64,000 bases of DNA from Gemmatimonadota bacterium. GTDB lineage: Bacteria; Gemmatimonadota; Gemmatimonadetes; Longimicrobiales; Gaopeijiaceae. The position numbers and the translations under genes were made by a program. The notes beneath the pieces are model-generated. The model was not told where the DNA came from, ran no database searches, and saw only the letters and a program-made list of their open reading frames with translations. Shown in pieces: positions 37,626-57,677 of this stretch. Location of the stretch: positions 1-64,000 of the forward strand of contig JAJDXM010000055.1 in assembly GCA_022823225.1 (NCBI GenBank). Reading direction: 5' to 3'. Positions within the stretch are counted from its first letter, which is position 1, and each line of letters begins with the position of its first letter.

Positions 37626-39170
37626 ATGGCCGTAGAAAAACACGTTTCCTCGAGAGGCCGGGCCATCGGTCTGTGGCTCGGCCTCTCCGCGTTCGTCCTG
37701 CTGCTCGTCTTCCCGGTCGACCCAGGGAACCTGCCCGCCAGCCGCCTGGCCGCCGTGGCTCTGCTGATGGCGATCTGGTGGGTCACCGACGCGATTCCGC
37801 TCTTCGCGACGGCTCTGCTCCCCCTCGTCCTCTACCCGCTCCTGGGCATCATGTCCGGGCACGACACCGCGCCGATCTACTTCAACAGCACGATCGTGCT
37901 CTTCCTCGGCGGGTTCATGATCGCCCTGACGATGGAGAAGTGGAACCTTCACCGGCGGATCGCGCTCAACATCATCCACGCGGTGGGGGGCGGGCCCGCG
38001 CGCATCGTGCTGGGGTTCATGATCGCGGCGGCGTTCCTCTCGATGTGGATCTCGAACACGGCCACCGCGGTCATGATGGTCCCGATCGGGCTCGCGATCA
38101 TCCTGCAGATCGAGGGCGAATTCGGCCGCGACAAGGCGCACCATCTCTCGGTGGGACTCATGCTGGGGATCGCCTACGGCGCCACCGTGGGCGGACTCAC
38201 CACGCTCGTGGGCACGCCGCCCAACCTGTCGTTCGTGCGGATCTTCCAGATCCTCTTCCCCGAGGCGCCGCCGATCGCCTTCGGGCACTGGATCGTGATG
38301 GCCTTCCCCGTGGGGCTGATCATGCTGGTTGCGGCCTGGCTGATGATCACGCGCGTCTTCCACCGGGTGCCCGACAGCGTCAACGTCGACCAGGAGGTGG
38401 TGGCGGTGGAGCGCGGGCGCCTCGGATCGATCGCCTTCGAGGAGCGTGCGGTGATGGGGGTCTTCGTCGCGACGGCGCTGCTGTGGGTCTTCCGGGTCGA
38501 CCTGGAGCTCGGCTTCCTGACCATCCCGGGCTGGTCGCGCATCCTCCCCGACCCGGGCATGATCGACGACGGAACGATCGCCATCACCCTTGCGTCGGTG
38601 CTCTTCTTCATCCCGGCACGAAACCGCGAGAGCGGCGCGACGCGGGTCATGGGGCCGGACGTCATCCCCCGCCTTCCCTGGAACATCGTGCTGCTCTTCG
38701 GCGGCGGCTTCGCGCTGGCGGCCGGCTTTCAGGAAACCGGGCTCGCCCAGCTCATCGGCAACCAGTTCGAGGTGCTCGGCAACCTGCCGGTCTTTCTGCT
38801 GATCGTGATCGTGTGCGTGGCGCTCACCTTCCTCACCGAATTCACGAGCAACACCGCCACCACCGAGATGATCCTGCCGATCCTCGCGTCGGTGGCCGTC
38901 GTCACCGGCACCCATCCCCTGGTGCTGATGATTCCGGCGACGCTGTCCGCCTCCTGCGCGTTCATGATGCCCGTGGCAACGCCGCCCAACGCAATCGTCT
39001 TCGGGAGCGACCGGATCACCGTGGGCGAGATGGCCCGCACGGGGATCCTGCTGAACCTGATCGGAGTGTTGGTGATTGCGACCATCGTGTTCACCGTGGG
39101 GCTGACGGTCTTCGACATCGACCCGTCGGTGGTGCCGGAGTGGGCAAGGAGTCTGGCCGGGGAGTCCTGA
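37626..39170 (+). CDS. SLC13/DASS-family sodium:anion symporter
   Basis: 514 residues with about 11-12 helices. The two signature Ser-Asn-Thr hairpins are clear: FLSMWISNTATAVMMVPIG and TEFTSNTATTEMILPIL, with VGTPPNL and VATPPNAIVF at the two substrate loops. The family takes up di- or tricarboxylates or sulfate with Na+. It directly precedes the glucan locus but lies upstream of the operator at 39240. Confidence 0.9.
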   Translation: MAVEKHVSSRGRAIGLWLGLSAFVLLLVFPVDPGNLPASRLAAVALLMAIWWVTDAIPLFATALLPLVLYPLLGIMSGHDTAPIYFNSTIVLFLGGFMIALTMEKWNLHRRIALNIIHAVGGGPARIVLGFMIAAAFLSMWISNTATAVMMVPIGLAIILQIEGEFGRDKAHHLSVGLMLGIAYGATVGGLTTLVGTPPNLSFVRIFQILFPEAPPIAFGHWIVMAFPVGLIMLVAAWLMITRVFHRVPDSVNVDQEVVAVERGRLGSIAFEERAVMGVFVATALLWVFRVDLELGFLTIPGWSRILPDPGMIDDGTIAITLASVLFFIPARNRESGATRVMGPDVIPRLPWNIVLLFGGGFALAAGFQETGLAQLIGNQFEVLGNLPVFLLIVIVCVALTFLTEFTSNTATTEMILPILASVAVVTGTHPLVLMIPATLSASCAFMMPVATPPNAIVFGSDRITVGEMARTGILLNLIGVLVIATIVFTVGLTVFDIDPSVVPEWARSLAGES

Positions 39171-39335: not shown

Positions 39336-41258
39336 ATGGCAGCGAGCAGCGCACGCAGGATGATGGGCAGCGCCGCCGCGCTTCCTGCGCTCGCCCTCGC
39401 CGCCTGCGAACGCGACCTGACCGAGCTCGACCCGGCGGCCTTCCCACCCGAGCCGGCGGTCTTCTACGACGACTTCGCTCCGGGACTCCACTACGGAGCT
39501 TTCGGGGGGTCCAAGGTCGACGCCCTCGATATCGAACGCGATCTGGTCTACCGCGGAACCGCGGCCTTGAAGTTCTCCGTTCCGGCACCCAGCGATCCGA
39601 CGGGCGGCTACGCCGGGGGGGCCTTCTTCTCGACCGTGCCCCGGGATCTGTCGGGGTTCGACGCGCTGACCTTCTGGGCCCGCGCGAGCACGGCCGCTAC
39701 GCTGGACCGGGTCGGTTTCGGAGACGACAACACCGGCACCTCCCGCTTCCCGGCCACGCTCGACAATCTGTCGCTCTCGACCCGCTGGACGAAGTACGCG
39801 ATCCCCCTTCCACTGCCCGCCGTACTGGCCCAGGAGTCCGGACTCTTTCTCGTCGCGGACGCTTCCGAGTTTCCGGTCGGCTACGAGCTGTACTTCGACG
39901 ATGTTCAGTTCGAGCGGCTCGGCACGATCATCAATCCGCGGCCGGCGATCGACACGCGGACGGTAAGCGGCGAGGCCGGCGGCACCCTGGCGGTCGGCGG
40001 CACGCGCGTGACCTTCGACGTCAACGGGACCCACCTGACGGTCGGCGCCGCACCCGCGTACTTCACCTTCACCTCGTCGGACCCGGGGGTCGCGACGGTG
40101 AACCCCGACCACACCATCACGCTGGTCCGCCCCGGCACCGCCACGATCACGGCGACCCTGGGAGCGACCCCGGCCACGGGAGCGCTCACGGTCAACGTCG
40201 AGACGCCGCCAGAGGACGCGCCCCCGGTGCCGACGGTGCCCGCCGAGGACGTCATCTCCTTGTTCAGCGACGCCTACGCGGACGTGGCGGTCGACACCTG
40301 GTCGGCGGATTGGGACCAGGCCGACGTGGAAGACGTGGTCGTCGCCGGGAATCCGGTCAAGAAGTACACCAACCTGGCGTTTGCAGGCGTCGAGTTCACC
40401 TCGTCGACGATCGACGCCACGTCGATGACCCACCTCCACGTCGATCTGTGGACGAATGACGCCAACGCCTTCCGCATCAAGCTGGTGGACTTCGGCGCGA
40501 ACGGAATCTTCGGCGGAGGCGACGACAGCGAGCACGAGGTCACCTTCACGCCCGTGTCAACGACGCCGATCGCGCCGGGAACGTGGAACGTCCTAGACAT
40601 TCCGCTTTCGGCCTTCGGCGGACTGGCGGACCGCAGCCATCTCGCCCAGCTGATCATCTCCGGGTCGAGCCGGACGGTCTACCTGGACAACATCTACTTC
40701 TTCCAGGGTGAGACTCCCGTCGATCCCACAGGCCCCCCGGACCCCGCACCGACGCCCCAGGACGCGGCAAGGGACGTGATTTCGCTCTTCAGCGACGCGT
40801 ATGACGACGCGGCCATCGACACCTGGTCGGCGGAGTGGGACCAGGCCGACGTGGAGGACGTGGCGATCGAGGGCGACGCGACGAAGAAGTACACGAACCT
40901 GGTATTCGCGGGAATCGAGTTCACATCGCAGACCCTGGACGCCAGGAGCATGACGCACTTCCGAATGGACATCTGGACGCCGGACGAGACGGCGGCCGCG
41001 GGGTTCAAGGTGAAGCTGGTGGACTTCGGTGCGGATGGAGGGTTCGGCGGGGGGGACGACAGCGAGCACGAAGTCACTGTCACCGCCGCCGACGGGCTGG
41101 CGACGGGAGCGTGGGTGTCGCTGAATCTGCCCCTTGCGGACTTCGCCAACCTGGCCGGGAGGGAGAATCTGGCCCAGCTGATCATCTCGGGGGATCTGAG
41201 CACGGTCTACGTCGACAACGTCTATTTCCGGCGGCCCGCTTCCGGGCCCGGTCATTAA
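39336..41258 (+). CDS. Glycan-binding lipoprotein with Ig-like and two VISLFSDAY repeats
   Basis: 640 residues; ATG after AAGGTGAGG. Signal SAAALPALALAAC with lipobox. Residues about 35-190 form a carbohydrate-binding-like beta-sandwich (FYDDFAPGLHYGAFGG, TLDRVGFGDDN, ELYFDDVQF). A BIG2/Ig-like domain follows (TFDVNGTHLTVG, ATVNPDHTITLVRPGTATITATLG). Two ~145-residue repeats, at 40249 and 40777, have DVISLFSDAY, YTNL-FAG-EFTS, IKLVDFGA and VYxDNxYF. Such domains accompany GH16 laminarinases in Bacteroidetes, so beta-glucan capture at the surface is the inference. First gene after the left operator. Confidence 0.75.
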   Translation: MAASSARRMMGSAAALPALALAACERDLTELDPAAFPPEPAVFYDDFAPGLHYGAFGGSKVDALDIERDLVYRGTAALKFSVPAPSDPTGGYAGGAFFSTVPRDLSGFDALTFWARASTAATLDRVGFGDDNTGTSRFPATLDNLSLSTRWTKYAIPLPLPAVLAQESGLFLVADASEFPVGYELYFDDVQFERLGTIINPRPAIDTRTVSGEAGGTLAVGGTRVTFDVNGTHLTVGAAPAYFTFTSSDPGVATVNPDHTITLVRPGTATITATLGATPATGALTVNVETPPEDAPPVPTVPAEDVISLFSDAYADVAVDTWSADWDQADVEDVVVAGNPVKKYTNLAFAGVEFTSSTIDATSMTHLHVDLWTNDANAFRIKLVDFGANGIFGGGDDSEHEVTFTPVSTTPIAPGTWNVLDIPLSAFGGLADRSHLAQLIISGSSRTVYLDNIYFFQGETPVDPTGPPDPAPTPQDAARDVISLFSDAYDDAAIDTWSAEWDQADVEDVAIEGDATKKYTNLVFAGIEFTSQTLDARSMTHFRMDIWTPDETAAAGFKVKLVDFGADGGFGGGDDSEHEVTVTAADGLATGAWVSLNLPLADFANLAGRENLAQLIISGDLSTVYVDNVYFRRPASGPGH

Positions 41259-44200
41259 ACAGGAAAGAATTCATGAAATCGCACAGCAATCGCACAGTCC
41301 CAGTCCGGCGGTCGCCGGGACCCTTCACCCACCGCCACTCATTCCCACGGGGCTGGGCCGGCGTGCCCGTCGCGCTCCTTGTGTGCGGGGTGCTGGCCTG
41401 CGGCGACGACCCCGTCGAGCCGCCCGTCGCCACAACGGTCACGGTGTCCCCGGCGACGGCTTCGCTTGCATCGCTGGGTGAGACTGTCCAGCTGAGCGCC
41501 ATGGTTCGCGACCAGAACGGGGATGTGATGACCGGTGCGCCGGTGAGCTGGAGCTCGAGCGACGCCGCGGTCGCGTCAGTGAACACGTCGGGGCTGGTTA
41601 CGGCGGCGGGCAACGGGATGGCGACGATTACGGCGACCTCCGGGACCGCGAGCGGCACGGCGGCCGTCACGGTGGAGCAGGTCCCGACGGCGGTGTCGGT
41701 CACGCCCGAGTCGGTGACGCTCGCTGCGGTCGGAGAGACAGCTCAGTTCACAGCCGCGGTGCAGGATGCGAACGGGAACGCGGTCGCCGGCGCGGAGGTG
41801 AGTTGGGCGTCGGGGGACGAGGCGGTCGCGACGGTGGACGCGAACGGGCTCGTCACCGCGGTCGCCAACGGCACGGCGACGATCACCGCGACGTCCGGCA
41901 GCTTGAGCGAGAGCGGAACCGTGACGGTCGAGCAGGAAGCCGCGGCGGTCACGGTCGCGCCCGAATCGGTCCACTTGATCGTGTCCGGCGAGACGGCGCA
42001 GCTCGCGGCCGAGGTGACCGACGCGAACGGGAACGTGATCGAGGGTGCGACGGTGAGCTGGGCCTCGGCGGACGAGGCGGTTGCGACGGTGGACGCGAAC
42101 GGGCTTGTCGCCGCGGTGGCCGATGGCGCGACCATGGTCACCGCGACATCGGCCGGCGCGAGTGCGAGCGCGGCGGTCACGGTCATGCTGCAGGCCGCGC
42201 CCACCTCGGGGCCGCCCGCGCCGACCCACGCCGCACAGGACGTCATCTCGCTCTTCAGCGACGCCTACGAAGACGTGACGGTGGACACGTGGTCGGCGGT
42301 TTGGGATCAGGCCGATGTCGCGGACGTGGTGATCGCCGGGAACGCGGCAAGGAGATACACGAACCTGATCTTTGCAGGCGTCGAGTTCACTTCGCAGACG
42401 GTGGACGCGACGGACGCGACCCACTTCCGGATGGACATCTGGACGCCCGACGAGACCGCAGCCGCGGCATTCAGAGTGAAGTTGGTGGACTTCGGCGCGG
42501 ACGGCGCGTTCGGGGGCGGCGACGACAGCGAGCACGAGGTCGTGATCACGGCGGACGACGGGCTCGCGACGGAAGAGTGGGTGCAGCTGGACCTGCCGTT
42601 CACGGCCTTCCCGGGGCTCGCGGCGAGGGAACACCTGGCGCAGCTGATCATCTCGGGCGACCCGAATACGGTCTACGTGGACAACGTCTACTTCCGGCGG
42701 GGCGAGGCGCCGCCCCCGGAGCCCGTGCCTACCGAGGCGGCCCCGGTGCCCGGTGACGCGGCCGATGACGTGATTTCGCTCTACAGTGACGCATATGACG
42801 ATGTGACGGTGGACACCTGGTCGGCGGACTGGGACGTGGCGACCGTCGAGGACGTGGAGGTCGCGGGCAACGCGACCAAGAAGTACACCGGGCTGGTGTT
42901 TGCCGGGATCGAATTCACCTCCGCGACCGTCAACGCGGCCGACATGACCCACTTCCGCATGGACATCTGGACGCCGGACGAGACGGTGAACGCGGCATTC
43001 AAGGTCAAGCTGGTGGACTTCGGCTCCGACGGCGCCTGGTCCGGCGGCGACGACACCGAGCACGAGGTCACCATAACGGCCGCAGACGGCCTGGTGTCGC
43101 AGCAGTGGGTGCAGCTGGACCTGGCGCTGGCGGACTTCACTGGCCTGGGCGCGACGGAACACCTGGCGCAACTGATCATATCAGGCGACCCGAATACGCT
43201 CTACGTGGACAACGTGTACTTCCGGAAGGGGGCGGCACCGGCAGCACCGAGCGCGCCCGCTCCGACGCCGACGCACGGGGCGGACGCCGTGATCTCGCTC
43301 TTCAGCGGCCCGTACGCCGACGCCACGGTGGACACCTGGTCCGCGTCGTGGGACCAGGCCGACGTGGAGGACGTGGTGATCGAGGGCGATACGGTGAAGA
43401 AGTACACGAACCTTGTGTTCGCCGGGATCGAGTTCACGTCCGCGCCCATCGACGCCACCGCGATGACGCATTTCCACATGGACATCTGGACGCCCGACGA
43501 GACGGTGAACGCGGCGTTCAAGGTCAAGCTGGTGGACTTCGGGGCCGACGGCGCCTGGTCCGGCGGCGACGACACCGAACACGAGGTCACGCTCACCGCC
43601 GCCTCCGATCCCGCGCTGGCCACCGGCCAGTGGGTCAGCTACGATCTCGCGTTCGCCGACATGACCAACCTGGCTGCCCGCGAACACCTCGCCCAGCTGA
43701 TCATCTCCGGCGACCCGAACACGGTATTCGTGGACAACGTCTACTTCTATGCGCCGCCACCGAGCGAGCCTTCCGAGGCGGCGCCGACCCCGTCGCACCA
43801 CGCCGACAGCGTCATCTCGTTCTTCAGCGACGCCTACACCGACGTGACGGTCGACACCTGGTCCGCGTCGTGGGACCAGGCCGATGTCGAGGACGTGCAG
43901 ATCGCCGGGAATGCGACCAAGAGATACACGAACCTCGTATTCGCGGGTATCGAGTTCACCTCGAACGCCGTTGACGCCACCGGGATGACCCACTTCCGGA
44001 TCGACATCTGGACCCCCGACCCCACCGCCGCCCCGGCCGTCTTCAAGGTCAAGCTGGTGGACTTCGGTGCCGATGGCAGTTTCGCCGGAGGCGACGACAC
44101 CGAGCACGAGATCTCGCTCACCGCGAGTTCGGACCCGGCGCTCGCGACGGCCCAATGGTTGTCATACGACATCCCTCTGTCGGACTTCACGGCGCTCACG

Positions 44201-44277
44201 ACGCGGGGGCACCTTGCGCAGCTGATCATCTCCGGCGATCCCAATACGGTGTTCGTCGACAACGTGTACCTGCGCAA
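40240..44277 (+). repeat. Array of six ~145-residue VISLFSDAY domains across two genes
   Basis: Six related units start near 40249, 40777, 42241, 42769, 43291 and 43813. Each has DVISLFSDAY-(x)n-VDTWSAxWDxAxVxDV, a central MTHxHMDIWTPDE hairpin, VKLVDFGADG and a closing LAQLIISGDPNTVYVDNVYF. Nucleotide identity between the last four is high by eye, so recombination among them is likely. A seventh, permuted unit lies in the transporter gene at 46640. Confidence 0.8.
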
Positions 44278-44281
44278 ATGA
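41273..44281 (+). CDS. Large glycan-binding lipoprotein with three BIG2 and four VISLFSDAY domains
   Basis: 1002 residues; signal WAGVPVALLVCGVLACGDD with lipobox. Three BIG2 domains (about residues 45-135, 138-220, 222-305) each end in GxATITATSG-like strands and probably form a stalk. Four VISLFSDAY domains follow, joined by Pro/Ala-rich linkers such as PAPSAPAPTPTHG. The layout of a lipid anchor, a stalk and multiple binding heads suits cell-surface glucan capture. It starts 14 bases after the previous gene and its stop overlaps the ROK start (ATGA). Confidence 0.8.
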   Translation: MKSHSNRTVPVRRSPGPFTHRHSFPRGWAGVPVALLVCGVLACGDDPVEPPVATTVTVSPATASLASLGETVQLSAMVRDQNGDVMTGAPVSWSSSDAAVASVNTSGLVTAAGNGMATITATSGTASGTAAVTVEQVPTAVSVTPESVTLAAVGETAQFTAAVQDANGNAVAGAEVSWASGDEAVATVDANGLVTAVANGTATITATSGSLSESGTVTVEQEAAAVTVAPESVHLIVSGETAQLAAEVTDANGNVIEGATVSWASADEAVATVDANGLVAAVADGATMVTATSAGASASAAVTVMLQAAPTSGPPAPTHAAQDVISLFSDAYEDVTVDTWSAVWDQADVADVVIAGNAARRYTNLIFAGVEFTSQTVDATDATHFRMDIWTPDETAAAAFRVKLVDFGADGAFGGGDDSEHEVVITADDGLATEEWVQLDLPFTAFPGLAAREHLAQLIISGDPNTVYVDNVYFRRGEAPPPEPVPTEAAPVPGDAADDVISLYSDAYDDVTVDTWSADWDVATVEDVEVAGNATKKYTGLVFAGIEFTSATVNAADMTHFRMDIWTPDETVNAAFKVKLVDFGSDGAWSGGDDTEHEVTITAADGLVSQQWVQLDLALADFTGLGATEHLAQLIISGDPNTLYVDNVYFRKGAAPAAPSAPAPTPTHGADAVISLFSGPYADATVDTWSASWDQADVEDVVIEGDTVKKYTNLVFAGIEFTSAPIDATAMTHFHMDIWTPDETVNAAFKVKLVDFGADGAWSGGDDTEHEVTLTAASDPALATGQWVSYDLAFADMTNLAAREHLAQLIISGDPNTVFVDNVYFYAPPPSEPSEAAPTPSHHADSVISFFSDAYTDVTVDTWSASWDQADVEDVQIAGNATKRYTNLVFAGIEFTSNAVDATGMTHFRIDIWTPDPTAAPAVFKVKLVDFGADGSFAGGDDTEHEISLTASSDPALATAQWLSYDIPLSDFTALTTRGHLAQLIISGDPNTVFVDNVYLRK

Positions 44282-45495
44282 TCCCGCGCGAAGCTGTTGC
44301 GGTGCCGGAGGACGACCTGGCCCGGACGGTCCTGAACCTCGTCTGGGAGCGGCGGGCGGTCTCACGCGCCGAAATCGCACGCGGCACGGGACGGTCCCGC
44401 TCCACCATCTCCGAGGTGGTGGGGCGGCTCCTCGTCACGGGCCTGGTGGCGGAGGTCGGCGCCGGCGAGAGTCGCGGGGGCCGGCGTCCCATTCTGGTGG
44501 GATTCCAGGACGATGCGGGAGTGATTCTTGGGGTGGACGTGGGTGCGACCCATATCTCGGCGATTCTGACCGACCTTCGCGGGCGCGTGCTGGCCTGGCG
44601 TGAACGGGCTCACCCCGTGCGCACCGATCCCAAGGGCGCGGCGGCGCTGATTGCGGGGCTGGGCGAGGCATGTCTGGCCGAATGGAACGGGGAGCAGTCG
44701 CGACTCATGGGGATCGGTGTGGCCGTCCCCAGCCCGGTCGATCCCGGGTCGCCGGACCGGGTGCTGGAACGGGTGCTCCCGGCGTGGCGTGGCCACGGTG
44801 TGCTGGACCGGCTTAACCGCGTGTTCGGGGTGCCCGTCTTCGTGGACAACGACGCGAATCTGGGGGCGGTGGCGGAGCGGTGGTGGGGGGAGGCGGTCGG
44901 GATCGACGATTTCGTGTACCTGAAGGTCGCTACCGGGGTGGGGGCGGGGATCATGATCGGCGGTGAGATCTACCGTGGGTCCACAGGCGTCGCCGGCGAA
45001 ATCGGTCACGTGGCGATCGATCCGGGCGGACCCGAGTGCGTGTGCGGGAACCGGGGCTGTCTGGCGACCTTCGTGGGCACGCGCCAGCTCGTCGACCGGG
45101 CCAGGAGCCTTCTTGACGGCTACCCGGACAGCGCTCTCGTTGGAACCGAGCTCGGTATCCGCGCCATCGAGGACGCCGCGCTCGCCGACGACCCGCTCGC
45201 GCTGCAGGTCGTCAACGAGGCAGCGGTTCGCCTGGGCATCGTCGTCGCCGGCGTGCTGAATCTCCTGAACCCCGGATCGGTGATCCTTGGCGGGAGCCTG
45301 GCGAGGGTGGGCGACCGGCTCGTCAAACCGCTGCGCGAAGCCGTCGCCACCCGCACACTGGTGGCTTCGGCCGGGGCCTCGGACATCCGCACCAGTGACC
45401 TTGGCGAGCGGGCGGTCGCTCTGGGCGCCGCCACGCATGTGCTGGTGGCGGCCCTGGCCAATCCTCAGCTGTTTCCCGGCGTGAAATCGGCATGA
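44278..45495 (+). CDS. ROK-family transcriptional regulator of the glucan locus
   Basis: 405 residues. N-terminal winged helix (LARTVLNLVWERRAVSRAEIARGTGRSRSTISEVVGRLL), then a ROK sugar-kinase-like domain with GVDVGATHISAILTDL, VDNDANLGAVAE and GEIGHVAIDPGG, and the zinc motif CVCGNRGCL. The DNA-binding N-terminus marks it as a NagC/XylR-type regulator, not a kinase. It is coupled to the binding-lipoprotein gene and to GH16 by ATGA overlaps. The 25-bp palindromes at 39240 and 57549 are its likely sites. Confidence 0.88.
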   Translation: MIPREAVAVPEDDLARTVLNLVWERRAVSRAEIARGTGRSRSTISEVVGRLLVTGLVAEVGAGESRGGRRPILVGFQDDAGVILGVDVGATHISAILTDLRGRVLAWRERAHPVRTDPKGAAALIAGLGEACLAEWNGEQSRLMGIGVAVPSPVDPGSPDRVLERVLPAWRGHGVLDRLNRVFGVPVFVDNDANLGAVAERWWGEAVGIDDFVYLKVATGVGAGIMIGGEIYRGSTGVAGEIGHVAIDPGGPECVCGNRGCLATFVGTRQLVDRARSLLDGYPDSALVGTELGIRAIEDAALADDPLALQVVNEAAVRLGIVVAGVLNLLNPGSVILGGSLARVGDRLVKPLREAVATRTLVASAGASDIRTSDLGERAVALGAATHVLVAALANPQLFPGVKSA

Positions 45496-46295
45496 CCGGG
45501 GCGTGCCGCCGGCTCGTCCCCGTCGTGGCCCTCCTGTCCCTGGCCTGCGACAGCTTCGGCGCGGAGCCCGACCCCGACTGGACCCTGGTCTGGAGCGACG
45601 AATTCCACGGCCCCGCCGGGCAGCTGCCCAACCCCGCCAACTGGACCTTCGACATCGGCACCGACTGGGGCAACCGGCAACTCGAGTACGACACCGACCG
45701 CCCCGAGAACGTGTCGCTTGACGGCAACGGCAACCTCGCGATCACCGCGCGTCGCGAATCCTACCGCGGGAGCGCCTATACCTCCGGACGCATCAAGACA
45801 CAGGGGCTCTTCGAACAGGCGTACGGCCGCTTCGAGGCACGCATCCGGCTCCCCGCCGGGCGGGGGATCTGGCCCGCCTTCTGGATGCTCGGCAATGACT
45901 TCGGCACCGTGGGCTGGCCCGAGTGCGGCGAGATCGACATCATGGAGTACCGCGGCCAGGAGCCGTCGATCGTGCTCGGCACCGTCCACGGTCCCGGGTA
46001 CTCCGGAGGCGGTGGCATCGGGGCACGCTACGCGCTGACCGGCGCCCGCTTCGACACCGGATTCCACGAGTTCGCGATCGAGTGGACGGAGGAGCGCATC
46101 GTCTGGTTCGTGGACGGCCGGCGCTACCACGCCGTCGACCGGGACGATCCATCCGGCCGGTGGGTCTTCGACCACCCCTTCTTCCTGCTCCTGAACGTCG
46201 CCGTTGGGGGCACCTTCGTCGGACCGCCGAACGCGTCCACGACCTTCCCGCAGTCCATGCTCGTCGACTGGGTGCGCGTCTACCGCGCCGGGTGA
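45492..46295 (+). CDS. GH16 endo-beta-1,3-glucanase (laminarinase-type) lipoprotein
   Basis: 267 residues with signal VPVVALLSLACDS (lipobox). WTLVWSDEFHGPAGQLPNPANWTFDIG and WGNRQLEYDT are typical GH16_3 motifs. The catalytic ECGEIDIMEYRG holds the nucleophile and acid/base Glu in ExDxxE, and it ends VDWVRVYRAG. It cuts internal beta-1,3-glucan (laminarin-like) linkages, presumably at the cell surface. ATGA overlap with the ROK gene. Confidence 0.92.
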   Translation: MTGACRRLVPVVALLSLACDSFGAEPDPDWTLVWSDEFHGPAGQLPNPANWTFDIGTDWGNRQLEYDTDRPENVSLDGNGNLAITARRESYRGSAYTSGRIKTQGLFEQAYGRFEARIRLPAGRGIWPAFWMLGNDFGTVGWPECGEIDIMEYRGQEPSIVLGTVHGPGYSGGGGIGARYALTGARFDTGFHEFAIEWTEERIVWFVDGRRYHAVDRDDPSGRWVFDHPFFLLLNVAVGGTFVGPPNASTTFPQSMLVDWVRVYRAG

Positions 46296-46327
46296 CCCGG
46301 TGAGCAGCGGGTGACCCGGTGAGCAGG
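46290..46327 (+). repeat. 19-bp tandem duplication at the GH16-transporter junction
   Basis: Two adjacent copies of GGGTGACCCGGTGAGCAG(C/G) at 46290-46308 and 46309-46327. The first contains the GH16 stop TGA and the second the GTG start of the transporter. Only the second GTG continues in an open frame. Confidence 0.85.
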
Positions 46328-48484
46328 CGGACCGCCCCCGAAGACCGGGTATCGTCCCCGCACAAAGTCATCTACGGGATCGGCGGGTTCACGAACAACC
46401 TGCTGGGCCAGGGCATCGGCAACATGATGGCCGTGCTGACCCTGGCGCTGGGTGTGGACTTCCGCGCCGTCGGCCTGCTCGGCGGCCTGCCGCGCTTCTT
46501 CGACGCCCTCACCGATCCGCTCGTCGGCTTCGTGTCGGACAAGACGCGGTCCCGCTGGGGACGGCGGCGCCCGTTCCTCTTCGGGGGCGCGATCTCGGCG
46601 GGCGTCGTCTTCCTGCTGCTCTGGCAGATGCCGGCGCCCACGCAGCTGCGGCTCAAGCTGGTCGACTACGGGGCCGACCGCGTCTACAGCGGTGAGACGG
46701 ACGAATCCGAGGGGTGGCTGCGGGCCGCGGGCGACGCGCTAAGGGGGATCTTCACGGTGGAGGCGATCGACGATGTCGAGGACGAGGTCGCCGTTCTGCC
46801 CCCCACGCTGGTCACGGGCGCCTGGGTGAGCGTGGACGTGCCGCTGAGCGACTTCGACGGGCTCGCCACGCGCGAGAACCTGGCGCAGATGGTGATTTCG
46901 GGCGATCTGACCGAGGTGTACGTCGACAACGTGTATTTCTACCGCTCGGGCGAGGCGGCCGCGGGGGGACTGCCGGCGACGCCCCCCCCCGGCCAGGATG
47001 TCGAGGGTGCCACCGTCCCTGTCACTGGAGCGCCGGCCCCCGGGGTCCCGCCCGAGGACGTGATCTCCCTTTTCAGCGCCGCCTACCAGGACGTGCCGGT
47101 CGGGTCCTGGTCCGCCGACCCGGACGCGGCCGACCTGGCGGATGCCCAGGCCGGCGGCGACGAAGTCAAGCACTACACCAACCTTCGCGTCGCGACGATC
47201 GACTTCGGCAGCACCCCGATCGACGCCGGCGCGATGACGCACCTCCACATCGACATCTGGACCCCGGACGAGACCGGAGAGGGCTGGAGCCAGCAGGCCT
47301 ACTTCTGGTACTTCCTCATCGGGTCGCTGGTCTTCTTCCTGGCCTACACGATCTTCGCGACGCCGTGGGTGGCGCTCGGGTACGAACTCACCCCCGACTA
47401 CAATGAGCGCACCCGCCTCATGGGCGTGCAAAACTTCGTGTCCAACACCGTGTTCGTGATCGGCCCGTGGTTCCTCGTGATCGCGACCAACCCGGTGTGG
47501 TTCCGGAACCAGATGGACGGTGCCCGCTTCGTCGCGCTCGCGATCTGCGTCGCGACGATCGTGCTGGGCGTGCTGCCCGCGATTTTTCTGCGGGAGCGCG
47601 TGATCGGCGGAGGCGCGGCGGCGGCGGGTCCGGACCGCCGAGGCTCCCGGGCAAGCGGCGCGGACGAGCGCGCTGGCGGCCATGGCACCGGGGGACGCGT
47701 CACGAATCCGCGTACGGAGGGCCCCGGCTTCGGCGCGAGCGCGATGGAGTTTCTGCGCGGCCTGTGGCAAACGCTCAGCACCGGTCCCTTTCTGCTGCTC
47801 TGCATCGCGACCTTCCTGATGTTCAACAGCTTCATCATGATCTCGCAGTTCCAGTTCTGGGTGTTCGCCTTCTACATCACCGGCGGCAACGTCCCGGAAG
47901 GGGCTGCGCTCGCCGGCGTGGTCGGGACGGTGGGCACCGTCACCGGCTTCCTGGTGATCGCGCTCGTCACCTGGCTGGGGACCAGGATCGGGAAGAGGAA
48001 CGCGTTCTTCGTGTCCACGGGCATTTCGATGCTCGGATACGCGCTCAAGTGGTTCTGCTACACGCCCGACCAGCCCCTGCTGGCGCTGCTGCCCGCCCCG
48101 TTCCTGGCCTTCGGACTCGGCGGCCTCTTCACCCTCATGGGGTCGATGATCGCCGACGTGGTGGACCTGGACGAGATCACCACCGGAGAGCGTCGCGAAG
48201 GCATGTTCGGGTCGGTTTTCTGGTGGATGGTGAAGCTCGGCCAGAGCGGCGCGATCGTGCTCGGCGGGTTCCTGCTCTACTCGACCGGGCTCGACGCGTC
48301 GCTGGGCGCGAATCAGCCCGAAGGAACGATCTTCTGGCTGCGCGTCTACGACGCCTTCGTGCCGCTGATCGCGTCGGCGATCGCGATCTACGCCGTGTAC
48401 CGGTACCCGATCACCGAGCAGAGCGCGGGCGAGGTGAGGGCGGAGCTGGAGCGGCGGCGGGGGCGTGGCAAGACGCTGAGGTAG
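46319..48484 (+). CDS. GPH/MFS sugar transporter with inserted glycan-binding domain
   Basis: 721 residues from GTG. The host is a GPH (MelB-type) sugar:cation symporter: IYGIGGFTNNLLGQGIGN (TM1), DALTDPLVGFVSDKTRSRWGRRRPFLF (TM2-3 loop), YFWYFLIGSLVFFLAYTIFATPWVALGYEL (TM4), ERTRLMG, and IADVVDLDEITTGERREGMFGSVFWWMVKLGQS late. Without the insert it is 508 residues, near the family length. Residues about 108-320, in the short periplasmic TM3-TM4 loop, are a permuted VISLFSDAY domain. It lies 23 bases after GH16, consistent with import of glucan oligomers. No frameshift disturbs it. Confidence 0.85.
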   Translation: MSRRTAPEDRVSSPHKVIYGIGGFTNNLLGQGIGNMMAVLTLALGVDFRAVGLLGGLPRFFDALTDPLVGFVSDKTRSRWGRRRPFLFGGAISAGVVFLLLWQMPAPTQLRLKLVDYGADRVYSGETDESEGWLRAAGDALRGIFTVEAIDDVEDEVAVLPPTLVTGAWVSVDVPLSDFDGLATRENLAQMVISGDLTEVYVDNVYFYRSGEAAAGGLPATPPPGQDVEGATVPVTGAPAPGVPPEDVISLFSAAYQDVPVGSWSADPDAADLADAQAGGDEVKHYTNLRVATIDFGSTPIDAGAMTHLHIDIWTPDETGEGWSQQAYFWYFLIGSLVFFLAYTIFATPWVALGYELTPDYNERTRLMGVQNFVSNTVFVIGPWFLVIATNPVWFRNQMDGARFVALAICVATIVLGVLPAIFLRERVIGGGAAAAGPDRRGSRASGADERAGGHGTGGRVTNPRTEGPGFGASAMEFLRGLWQTLSTGPFLLLCIATFLMFNSFIMISQFQFWVFAFYITGGNVPEGAALAGVVGTVGTVTGFLVIALVTWLGTRIGKRNAFFVSTGISMLGYALKWFCYTPDQPLLALLPAPFLAFGLGGLFTLMGSMIADVVDLDEITTGERREGMFGSVFWWMVKLGQSGAIVLGGFLLYSTGLDASLGANQPEGTIFWLRVYDAFVPLIASAIAIYAVYRYPITEQSAGEVRAELERRRGRGKTLR
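46640..47278 (+). other. Circularly permuted VISLFSDAY domain inside the transporter
   Basis: The 213-residue insert first reads the C-terminal half of the repeat (LRLKLVDYGAD, WVSVDVPLSDFDGLATRENLAQMVISGDLTEVYVDNVYFYR). Then come a Pro/Gly/Ala linker (TPPPGQDVEG...GAPAPGVPP) and the N-terminal half (DVISLFSAAYQDVPVGSWSADPD, HYTNLRVATIDFG, MTHLHIDIWTPDET). The cut falls in the hairpin between DIWTPDET and VKLVDFG, so both ends of the insert would lie side by side, as needed for insertion into a loop. The linker equals those between tandem repeats, so the insert looks like one period taken from a repeat array. Confidence 0.8.
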
Positions 48485-54310: not shown

Positions 54311-57300
54311 CTACATCCCGATGTGCAGGTACGTCCGGATCTCCCACTCGCGCCCCGGGTCCCCGCCGATGCCCGGGTTGCACTCCATTCGCCCGAAGTC
54401 GTCGGGCGTCCGCGCCGGACAGTACCGCGGCGAGTACTCGTTGAGCGTGCGCATGGTCGCGCGCACCCCGACGCGGGTCTGCGGCAGGTCGAACCAGTCC
54501 GGCGGCCCGAGCGAATACGAGACATCGCCCATCAGCTGAAGCGGGAAGGTGAGGTTGAAGTCGCGGTGGTAGTCGTACGGGCCCCAGTCGTTCCGGCTGG
54601 CCATGCCGTGGAACTTGACCGAACCGTGGATGACGCGGAGGTCGATCCCGGCGCGGCGGACCTCCCGGTCGTCGTCGCCGTTGGGCTCGCCGGTCCCCGC
54701 GAAGATGTTCGCGATCAAGCCGGGCCCCGCGCGCCGCTTCGACACGACCCGCGCCTTGACTTCCCAGAGGTCGCGCGCGGGCGGCGCCCCGGGGAACGCG
54801 AAGGTGGAGCGGCCGTCGGCGAAGATCCCGATCCCGGCGTCCCGGGTGGTGGGGAAGCTGAAGTACACGAAGCCTACCGAGGCGGCCAGGACCGCGTCCT
54901 CGCGCCGGTCGCTGTCCCAGTTGTACATCCAGGTGGCGGGCGTGGGGTCGTAGGTGACGAGGAGCTCGGCCGCGTGGGTTTCCCGGTTGCCGCGCACCGC
55001 AAAGGGGTCGTCCAGGACGTTGCGGGGTCGCCCCGGGGCAGGGACGCCGGCCGGGACCGGACCCACGAGCGGCTTGCGCCACAGCACGTTGGGGGCGATC
55101 TGCCAGTCGCCCGCCAGCCAGGTCAGGCCGGTGATCACGTTGCGCTGGTTGCCGCTCCCGGTGTCCTTCAGCGTCCAGCCGGTGAAGGTCTGCGTCTGCG
55201 TCGGACCGCCGTCGGCCACGAGACCCATCGCCGCCCCCTGCAGGTACCAGTTGAGGCGTCCTCTGGTGAGGCTGACCTTGGCCTTCGCGCCGAACGCGTC
55301 GGAGTTCCGGATCTCGTCCTGCAGCACGCGGTAGGCGCCCGGCTCGCCGTCGACCAGCTGGAACATCTGGCCAGCTTTGGTGCTCCCCGACATGATGCCG
55401 CCGACTTCGAAGGTCGCGCCGCCCCTCGCCGCGGTCAGGTGCACCGTCGCCTTCCGAGTCGGCGGCAGCGGGATCGCGAACGAGCTCGACGCCTGTCCCG
55501 CCTCGGCCAGATCCTCCTGGTAGATGACGGTGCCCTGAACGGGACCGAGGCTGGCCTGCTGCTTGACGAGCACCGCCGGGTTCGCCCCCCACCACAGCTC
55601 GGGACCGATCGCCACCTTGAGTCCGCTCAGCGACCGCTTCCCGGCAATCTCCATTCCGACCGGCGCGAGCCCGTTGTACACGTCGATGTTGGGCCCGTAG
55701 TTGGCCTCCTGGTAGAGCCCGAAAAAGTCGCCTTCGTAGCCCCAGTGGTAGTGGCCGGATCGGTAGAAGCCCTCGAGCCGGAACCACCGGTCGTCCCACG
55801 AGACGCTGGCGCTGTAGACCTTGAGCCGCTCGATGTCCTGAAGCGTCACGTCCCCGCCCTGGCCGCGGACGTCGCGCGGACGGCCCCGGTTCTCGTAGAA
55901 GATTTCGTCGATCGGGTTCGTGGGAACATCGCCGAGCATGTTGAACGACACGGTCGCGAGCATGTTCGCGGTCGGCTGCGCCGTCAGGTCCGCGTAGAAG
56001 GACTGCATCTGGTCGAAGCCGCGGAAGCTCGGGTAGGTGGGGTTCGTCTCGGGCGGATCCTCGGGCGTGCTGACCAGGGAGCCGCCGGTGCTGAAGGTCT
56101 CCAGCTCGATGCGCACACCGCTCACGCGCACGCGGTCGAGCGCGGTCGCGAGGAGCGCGGCCCGGTCGCCCTGCGCGCGGAGTCCCATGTCGGCCGGCTG
56201 AATGCGCGCGAAGTGCTCCCGGATCGCGGCGAGGTCGGTTCCGGGCGCGTACGGGTCGAGGGTGTAGGCCGCCTGGAGCGCGTAGTAGGCGGCGCGCGGG
56301 TAGAGCTCGTAGAGGTTGTTGGGGTCGGTGGGGCCCTTGGCGACAATCCCCCACCACTCCTCGTTCATGTTGTTGTCGCCCTCGACGAAGTCCTCCGTGT
56401 AGCCGCCGTTCGCCCACGACGCGTTCGTGTCCTGGATGTCGAGCCGGTCCTCCTGGCCGAACTTCCACCAGCCGTCGGTCCACTGGAAGGTGGCGCCGCC
56501 GATCGAGTTGCCGACCAGGCCCTTGCCCGCCGACTGCTCGTAGATCTCCCGCCACTGCCCGATGAGGTACCGGGCCTGCACGACCTGGTCCTCGTGCATG
56601 TTCTTCGCATTCCAGGCGTCGGCGCCGAACTCGGTGAACATCACGGGGCGGTCCAGCACGCCCTTCACCTCCTGGTAGAGATCCCCGAACGAGATGCCCC
56701 GGTAGACGTTGGTGCCGAAGATGTCCAGGTCGGGCACCTCCTCGGCGATGATCTCGAGGTACTGCAGATCGCCGTTGGCCATCGCGACGGGGCGGGTGGG
56801 GTCGATCTCCTTGATGCGCCGCGCCACCTCGCCGAAGAGTGAATACATGTGGCGCGCGCGGACCGTGTTGGCCTCCTCCTCGGGAAGGTCCTCGGTCTCG
56901 GCCGAACTCCACACCAGCCCGTAGTTGTTCTCGTTGCCCAATAGCCACATGAGGACGCCGGGCGTGTCCTTGAACTCGTCGACCAGCGCCTCGACCTCGG
57001 CCATCAGCACGGCGCGGGCCCGGGGGTCCGAGTAGTCGGTGTTCGCGCTGTAGACGCCGCCGGCCGTGACCCCGTAGCGGCCCAGCGCGTGGTTCAGGAT
57101 CGTGTAGATCCCGTAGCGCTCGTAAATGTGCCGCACCCACCGCGGCGTGATCCCGACGTAGGTGCGGATCGCGTTGCCGCCCATCGCCCTGAGGAGCGAC
57201 ATCTCGCGGTCGAGCGCGGCCTCGATGACGTGGTCTGGCTCGGTCCAGAAGCTGTAGTTGTAGGTCGTGCCGCGCGGGAAGTAGTCCCAGTTGACGCCCT

Positions 57301-57517
57301 GGACCATCATGTCGCGGCCGTCGATCTGGAGGCGGGTGCCGGTGGCGTCCGTGACGAGCTCGATGACGGGGAGCGGCGGGGGGGCTTCCTGGGCGGTGGC
57401 GGGGTTGGGGGGGGACGCGGCGAGGGCCGCCAGCGCGACGAGGGGCGCCAGGCGGGCGCGGCAGCCGGCCGGAGTCGTTGTGGTTGAGAGCGCGGTATCG
57501 GTGCGGATCGGACGCAT
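54311..57517 (-). CDS. Clan GH-A glycosidase fused to an outer-membrane beta-barrel
   Basis: 1068 residues from ATG 57517, after the right operator. Signal peptide LAPLVALAALAASPPNPATAQ. Residues about 50-370 are a TIM-barrel glycosidase. GVNWDYFPRGTTYNYSFW and GGNAIRTYVGITPRWVRHIYERYGI fit, and the Glu pair lies in GNEN (E196) and TEFG (E296), the clan GH-A acid/base and nucleophile pattern. From about 470 on, alternating strands (VYSASVSWDDRWFRLEGFYRSGHYHWGYEGDFFGLYQ, GLTWLAGDWQIAPNVLW, VGFVYFSFPTT) form a barrel of 16 or more strands ending TYLHIGM. GH2/GH72-like affinity is uncertain. It likely shows a glucan-cleaving domain at the cell surface. Confidence 0.8.
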   Translation of the reverse strand: MRPIRTDTALSTTTTPAGCRARLAPLVALAALAASPPNPATAQEAPPPLPVIELVTDATGTRLQIDGRDMMVQGVNWDYFPRGTTYNYSFWTEPDHVIEAALDREMSLLRAMGGNAIRTYVGITPRWVRHIYERYGIYTILNHALGRYGVTAGGVYSANTDYSDPRARAVLMAEVEALVDEFKDTPGVLMWLLGNENNYGLVWSSAETEDLPEEEANTVRARHMYSLFGEVARRIKEIDPTRPVAMANGDLQYLEIIAEEVPDLDIFGTNVYRGISFGDLYQEVKGVLDRPVMFTEFGADAWNAKNMHEDQVVQARYLIGQWREIYEQSAGKGLVGNSIGGATFQWTDGWWKFGQEDRLDIQDTNASWANGGYTEDFVEGDNNMNEEWWGIVAKGPTDPNNLYELYPRAAYYALQAAYTLDPYAPGTDLAAIREHFARIQPADMGLRAQGDRAALLATALDRVRVSGVRIELETFSTGGSLVSTPEDPPETNPTYPSFRGFDQMQSFYADLTAQPTANMLATVSFNMLGDVPTNPIDEIFYENRGRPRDVRGQGGDVTLQDIERLKVYSASVSWDDRWFRLEGFYRSGHYHWGYEGDFFGLYQEANYGPNIDVYNGLAPVGMEIAGKRSLSGLKVAIGPELWWGANPAVLVKQQASLGPVQGTVIYQEDLAEAGQASSSFAIPLPPTRKATVHLTAARGGATFEVGGIMSGSTKAGQMFQLVDGEPGAYRVLQDEIRNSDAFGAKAKVSLTRGRLNWYLQGAAMGLVADGGPTQTQTFTGWTLKDTGSGNQRNVITGLTWLAGDWQIAPNVLWRKPLVGPVPAGVPAPGRPRNVLDDPFAVRGNRETHAAELLVTYDPTPATWMYNWDSDRREDAVLAASVGFVYFSFPTTRDAGIGIFADGRSTFAFPGAPPARDLWEVKARVVSKRRAGPGLIANIFAGTGEPNGDDDREVRRAGIDLRVIHGSVKFHGMASRNDWGPYDYHRDFNLTFPLQLMGDVSYSLGPPDWFDLPQTRVGVRATMRTLNEYSPRYCPARTPDDFGRMECNPGIGGDPGREWEIRTYLHIGM

Positions 57518-57548
57518 GCTCGCTTTCCGGTCGAAGCGCCCCGAACAG

Positions 57549-57573
57549 ACTTTGTTCGGTCGCCGAACAAAGT
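57549..57573. promoter_or_regulatory. 25-bp perfect palindrome, probable ROK operator (right)
   Basis: ACTTTGTTCGG-TCG-CCGAACAAAGT, identical arms to the site at 39240 with the spacer reversed. It lies 32 bases before the GH-barrel start, where bound repressor would block a minus-strand promoter. No gene occupies 57574-57677. Confidence 0.75.
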
Positions 57574-57677
57574 GCGGTGAGGCTGCGGCCCCTGTCAAGG
57601 AGGTCGCGTCACCTCACGGGCGGGCTTGGGCACACACCCACTGCCAATAACCGCTCGGAAGTGCCGAGAACGCTGGA

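Follow-up and report, generated by a model that had tools for sequence, protein, structure and literature searches.

A predicted beta-glucan oligosaccharide symporter of Gemmatimonadota carries a circularly permuted lipoprotein array domain in its TM3-TM4 loop

We analyzed a 64,000-nucleotide stretch of Gemmatimonadota DNA (hereafter the window) in which a sugar symporter of the GPH/MFS_2 type, encoded at 46319-48484 on the plus strand, carries a domain inserted in the loop between transmembrane helices 3 and 4 (TM3-TM4). We propose that this protein is a symporter for beta-glucan oligosaccharides in which a permuted, one-period periplasmic beta-sandwich would serve as a tethered substrate catcher, a reading to which we assign a probability of roughly 0.6. 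Computational analysis revealed the architecture of the protein, the permutation and conservation of its insert, the placement of the insert on the periplasmic side, the operon context, and two separate gains of a domain at this loop.

The reading frame starts with GTG and is uninterrupted through 721 codons, and the 721-aa product matches PF13347 (MFS_2) at 185 bits against a cut-off of 27, in blocks on both sides of the insert, with MFSD2A and MelB as homologues in the PDB. The first host part (aa 1-107; 46319-46639, +), delimited by flank comparison, runs from the N-terminus through TM3 and includes a cytoplasmic motif-A-type loop (SDKTRSRWGRRRPF); its residues 12-102 align with MelB residues 4-95, and the GRRRP motif-A-type loop is present. 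The second host part (aa 321-721; 47279-48481, +) extends from TM4 to the C-terminus, is recognized by Pfam, and is continuous with insert-free relatives. With residues 108-320 removed the transporter is 508 aa long, and insert-free relatives have open reading frames of about 480-530 aa with 0 extra residues at the TM3-TM4 point, in agreement with the original prediction that the host is of normal family length without its insert. TIGR00792 (gph) scored 137 bits on the window transporter against a cut-off of 231, and scored 167 and 185 bits, likewise under the cut-off, on transporters of a second insert-bearing clade described below. Because the insert fragments the match in the window transporter, and proteins of the second clade also fall under the cut-off, we read the window transporter as a distant GPH relative and not a strict TIGR00792 member. 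Its predicted function is cation-coupled (sodium or proton) sugar import. The protein resembles the GPH:cation symporters (MelB, MFS_2 PF13347, MFSD2A) in its homology over TM1-3 and TM4-12, its motif-A-type loop, and its length minus the insert; it differs in that sampled insert-free relatives have a short TM3-TM4 loop, whereas the window transporter has 213 residues there as a beta-sandwich. Some eukaryotic MFS proteins, MFSD2A included, have extracellular domains, which differ in kind and occupy different loops.

The insert comprises residues 108-320 (213 residues) and lies in the TM3-TM4 periplasmic loop. To relate it to the domains arrayed in the neighboring lipoproteins, we searched transporters with a profile of 160 positions built from 236 array domains of related loci. 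The first part of the insert (aa 108-209; 46640-46945, +) corresponds to the second half of the array domain (profile positions 81-160; E = 2e-22, 72 bits) and is all-beta in an AlphaFold2 model, while the second part (aa 238-319; 47030-47275, +), with the motif VISLFSAAY, corresponds to the first half (profile positions 2-83; E = 2e-27, 89 bits). Profile and alignments place a linker between the two, at approximately aa 210-237 (46946-47029, +), the end of which keeps the A-P-x-P linker motif of the arrays. Both halves of the profile are therefore found in the window insert, in an order other than the canonical one, and the same reversed order (80-160, linker, 1-84) was seen by profile search in all 22 distinct insert-bearing relatives. 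Judged by its sequence, the window insert is a circular permutant of the VISLFSDAY array domain, and its similarity to that domain is not a matter of chance. This is the arrangement that had been predicted for residues 108-320, of second half, linker and first half; the halves and the linker stand as proposed, and the layout needs correction in that the linker is about 28 aa long and the first part contains an additional segment of about 27 residues. This extra segment (approximately aa 127-153; 46697-46777, +), apparent in an alignment of the 22 inserts and in the AlphaFold2 model, is absent from array domains and is predicted with low confidence to form a short helix at model residues 46-54. 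The insert had no Pfam match, and no Pfam or NCBIfam carbohydrate-binding family scored above its cut-off for either the insert or the array domain; some canonical array domains gave sub-threshold matches to CBM_11, CIA30 or CBM30, and a PDB sequence search with the array domain returned chance-like matches only.

Two features bear on where the insert came from. Its two ends map to one point of the repeat, at profile positions of about 80-84, and the inter-domain A-P-x-P motif of the arrays is retained mid-insert (A in 22/22, the first P in 21/22 and the second P in 22/22). Together these fit well with an origin in which exactly one period was cut out of a tandem array, as originally predicted, and such an origin would provide a clear example from nature of how excising one tandem-repeat period yields a circular permutant. 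No donor array domain could be singled out: the best half-domain identities, about 60-70%, were found with many arrays. Of 36 columns conserved in the arrays, 31 are retained by the window insert. At W32 of the profile, a tryptophan in 98% of array domains, the window insert has P instead, and 8 of the 22 inserts lack the tryptophan. Most inserts also differ from the arrays at G57; the earliest-branching inserts (L120 and L121) retain both.

The structure of the insert was modeled with AlphaFold2 as a TM3-insert-TM4 fragment, using an alignment of 72 rows made up of 15 insert-bearing sequences and natural array stretches running from mid-domain to mid-domain. Since the array rows were put in permuted order by choice, the model is support for the permutation and not an independent test of it. 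The fragment folded as an all-beta sandwich flanked by two helices, with a mean pLDDT of 84, about 90-97 over most of the sandwich core, and lower values in the linker and helix, so the confident all-beta sandwich expected of the insert was recovered. Foldseek and VIA gave no good PDB fold match for the permuted model, and sequential aligners did not list CBM11, an outcome also expected when a sequential aligner is applied to a permuted domain. Concanavalin A-type lectins (VIA Z 4.5) were unconvincing as a fold for the permuted model and were not used. With regard to topology, the cytoplasmic GRRRP motif-A loop precedes TM3, and the insert comes after this helix; the insert is also strongly acidic (37 D/E versus 9 K/R). 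Position and composition point to the periplasmic side, in keeping with the earlier assignment of the insert to a periplasmic loop, and both contradict a cytoplasmic one.

The transporter gene lies downstream of the genes for two array lipoproteins. Lipoprotein 1 (39336-41258, +) has a lipobox, an N-terminal domain and two tandem array domains at 40215-40736 and 40740-41252 (together 40215-41252, +), and lipoprotein 2 (41273-44281, +) has a lipobox, three Big_2 domains and four tandem array domains at 42206-42730, 42734-43249, 43253-43771 and 43775-44278 (together 42206-44278, +), as delineated by Pfam scan, sequence and alignment. The six upstream repeats of the original prediction are thus present as two plus four, and these copies are 65-71% identical to the first. 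Between the lipoproteins and the transporter are a ROK-family regulator (open reading frame 44155-45495, +, true start probably near 44278; PF00480 at 4.4e-57, NagC/Mlc-like) and a GH16 endo-beta-glucanase (45492-46295, +; PF00722 at 5.2e-26) with the lipobox LSLAC and the catalytic motif GEIDIMEYRG. The gene order array lipoprotein, ROK, GH16, transporter is common to the window, to insert-free loci of Ignavibacteriota and other Gemmatimonadota, and to the second clade, where the operon at locus L077 has a GH30 in addition. Given this shared operon order, and the GH17 fusions of related transporters, as in a laminarin locus, the substrate is most likely a beta-glucan oligosaccharide. A sodium:sulfate-type symporter (37626-39170, +) lies directly upstream of the array lipoproteins and recurs beside the operon in many insert-bearing Gemmatimonadota loci. 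On the other side of the transporter, the frame at 54311-57598 (−) encodes about 1095 aa and gave no Pfam match in a scan that used an overlapping shorter frame; it is homologous to an 883-aa protein, partial in its locus, beside the L077 array lipoprotein. Many related loci, among them L054, L066 and L076, have a similar protein beside their array lipoproteins. The window protein is therefore a probable component of this glucan system, even though it lies 6 kb away here.

In the mechanism that we propose, the lipoproteins would capture glucan, the lipoprotein GH16 would cut the captured glucan, and the loop domain would hold the resulting oligomers at the periplasmic mouth of the transporter, raising the local substrate concentration. 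Ligand binding, the identity of the substrate and hand-over to the transporter are predicted. For the insert itself, glycan binding is suggested by the fact that it is a paralogue of array domains from a glucan locus and by the modeled fold of a second, unrelated insert at the same loop.

We measured the TM3-TM4 gap in all fetched relatives and found mostly no extra residues, the exceptions being L077 (Neomarinimicrobiota) and the related L107, which have about 175 extra residues at the same point. Phylum searches recovered this second insert (~170 residues) in further Neomarinimicrobiota and in several Cloacimonadota genomes, and hhalign related its sequence neither to the first insert nor to the array domain (probability under 1%). 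In a tree built from host sequences without their inserts, with the second clade represented by 19 distinct sequences from Neomarinimicrobiota and Cloacimonadota, each insert type formed one fully supported clade with insert-free relatives between them; the relatives sampled in Bacteroidota and KSB1 were insert-free as well. A single origin of both inserts was rejected (AU p = 0.0033, in a comparison whose constrained set has long branches), and the two inserts lack sequence similarity. The separate clades and the insert-free relatives between them indicate at least two gains at one site of a loop domain that appears to be periplasmic and is probably glucan-binding. Among the best matches, no third insert type was found in 345 + 247 genomes (overlapping samples) from the phyla of two Bacteroidota/Ignavibacteria loci, nor in 82 genomes from the phylum of the KSB1 locus; some of the longer frames met in these searches proved to be C-terminal extensions.

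The L077 insert was likewise modeled as a TM3-insert-TM4 fragment, from two sequences, with a mean pLDDT of 61. At that confidence, the model matched CBM11 by Foldseek (E = 1.6e-4, probability 1.0) and by VIA (Z 8.5 over 147 residues, rmsd 4.7), with CBM30, CBM65 and the laminarin-binding CBM 8qx6 nearby, and VIA also listed the complex I assembly-intermediate chain 7zkq_A at Z 9.5. The likeness to CBM11 (Clostridium thermocellum, 1v0a/6r31) and to the laminarin-binding CBM X584 (8qx6) is thus a fold match of a low-confidence second-clade model; there is no significant sequence membership in these families, and the window insert differs further in being permuted and unmatched. The colinear match to CBM11 indicates that the second-clade domain is apparently unpermuted. 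The earlier argument that permutation explains why the loop tolerates the domain is therefore not needed, as an apparently unpermuted domain occupies the same site. Downstream of the second-clade transporters are proteins of about 1110 aa (L077 11751-15077 and L107 5548-8940), the L077 one without a Pfam match, which we take to resemble large beta-1,3-glucan phosphorylases (GH149/GH161).

The main alternative is a docking or scaffolding role, in which the inserted domain contacts the array lipoproteins or the GH16 and holds an uptake complex together, with no binding of glycan. The insert is paralogous to domains of the lipoproteins from its own operon, the array-invariant tryptophan is lost in 8 of its 22 copies, and a helix-bearing segment absent from the arrays has been gained, all of which such a role would accommodate. 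It accounts less readily for the second clade, in which a domain with no detectable sequence relation to the arrays (hhalign under 1%) occupies that loop site in an operon of the same type and has a glucan-binding module as its best fold match, and we consider docking without glycan binding unlikely. Somewhat less likely still, in our view, is a passenger or spacer that the protein tolerates, for example one that protects or stabilizes the loop, with little role in transport. Insertions are tolerated in periplasmic loops, and the insert evolves faster than its host: the median pairwise dN/dS (NG86; pairs not independent) was 0.31 for the insert versus 0.19 and 0.22 for the two host parts. These values nevertheless place the insert clearly under purifying selection, looser than that on the host, and it has been kept under this constraint without observed loss in a 22-member clade, while this transporter family gained a second insertion at that site, again in this type of operon. 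That a domain was gained twice at a single loop, within one transporter family and one type of operon, argues that the insert has a function, and we favor that of a tethered catcher of beta-glucan oligosaccharides. The wider claim, that MFS symporters with a periplasmic glycan-capture domain between TM3 and TM4 are a distinct importer architecture with two or more origins in beta-glucan loci, one of them through a permuted array period, we regard as an even bet.

The permuted insert is distributed well beyond the window. Within the window's genus the transporter gene was found in 15 of 23 genomes, with the insert in every complete or readable copy, and insert-bearing relatives are up to 87-88% identical to the window transporter. 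A survey of 395 Gemmatimonadota genomes extended the range of the insert to additional genera and to another family, many others having an insert-free homologue, so the homologue search proposed at the outset returned the same insert in related GPH transporters of several genera and two families. A domain repeat 2 kb upstream is a setting in which assemblers can err, but a chimera of array genes and transporter is refuted, its probability being negligible, by the same junctions in many independent assemblies, including the complete chromosomes OX639991 (L041) and OX638356 (L049), and by the nearest other array-domain copies in the window's genome being just 50-55% identical over comparable length. 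Of the observations named beforehand as telling against the insert, an identical copy elsewhere was not found; the junctions recur in independent genomes, and with no identical donor, the insert is neither a recent nor an artefactual copy. In the host-sequence tree the Candidatus Palauibacter copies are nested among those from the window's genus, a placement suggestive of horizontal transfer. Within the window's genus, two genomes (G005, at loci L011 and L023, and G006, at L012 and L024) have two insert-bearing transporters each, one of each pair on a short contig, and the L012 match has an in-frame TAG. In another genome (G020; L017/L028/L050) the insert-bearing transporter is split into two frames of 647 and 231 aa, by a frameshift or a sequencing error. 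Matches by tblastn over query residues 106-393 at L067, L072 and L105 fell on array proteins and were not counted as insert-bearing transporters; the L105 genome has a second-clade transporter at another place.

MFS symporters are textbook solo transporters that work without a binding protein. Among ABC transporters, OpuA and GlnPQ are importers with covalently linked substrate-binding domains, which are bilobed and sit at a terminus. The window transporter would share their working principle, a tethered periplasmic binding domain beside the transporter, but it is an MFS symporter with a jelly-roll-type loop domain and has no homology to these ABC proteins. If our reading is correct, a secondary transporter can gain a substrate catcher tethered to it, much as in some ABC importers, and the TM3-TM4 loop may offer a generally usable position at which to engineer domains into MFS transporters. 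Because the closest relatives without an insert provide natural pairs, the effect of the domain on affinity and rate would be measurable.

The nearest known case to the window importer is FbGH17b, an MFS-GH17 fusion from a laminarin polysaccharide utilization locus of Formosa sp. (PMC6246565). There an MFS transporter of a laminarin locus is joined to a carbohydrate-active domain (PMC6246565), but that domain is a hydrolase at the C-terminus past the last helix, whereas the window protein has a non-catalytic domain inside a periplasmic loop. Searching open-licence papers for MFS proteins with an inserted carbohydrate-binding domain, we found nothing relevant; MFS fusions with carbohydrate-active enzymes are already known, and what is new relative to this literature is a non-catalytic, circularly permuted domain in an MFS loop. 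Bacteroidota homologues with a GH17 fusion belong to the transporter tree described above, and in Bacteroidota this family often has a GH17-type domain fused to its C-terminus. At L059, L062, L083, L114 and other Bacteroidota loci, the transporter has a C-terminal domain of about 300 aa that looks GH17-like by eye and by comparison with the Formosa fusion (PMC6246565). The 1113-aa transporter at L071 (6479-9817) has a C-terminal stretch that by appearance is a candidate GH3 beta-glucosidase, and a KSB1-phylum match (G1189:C10:52046-53497, L195) lies in a similar frame of 1118 aa.
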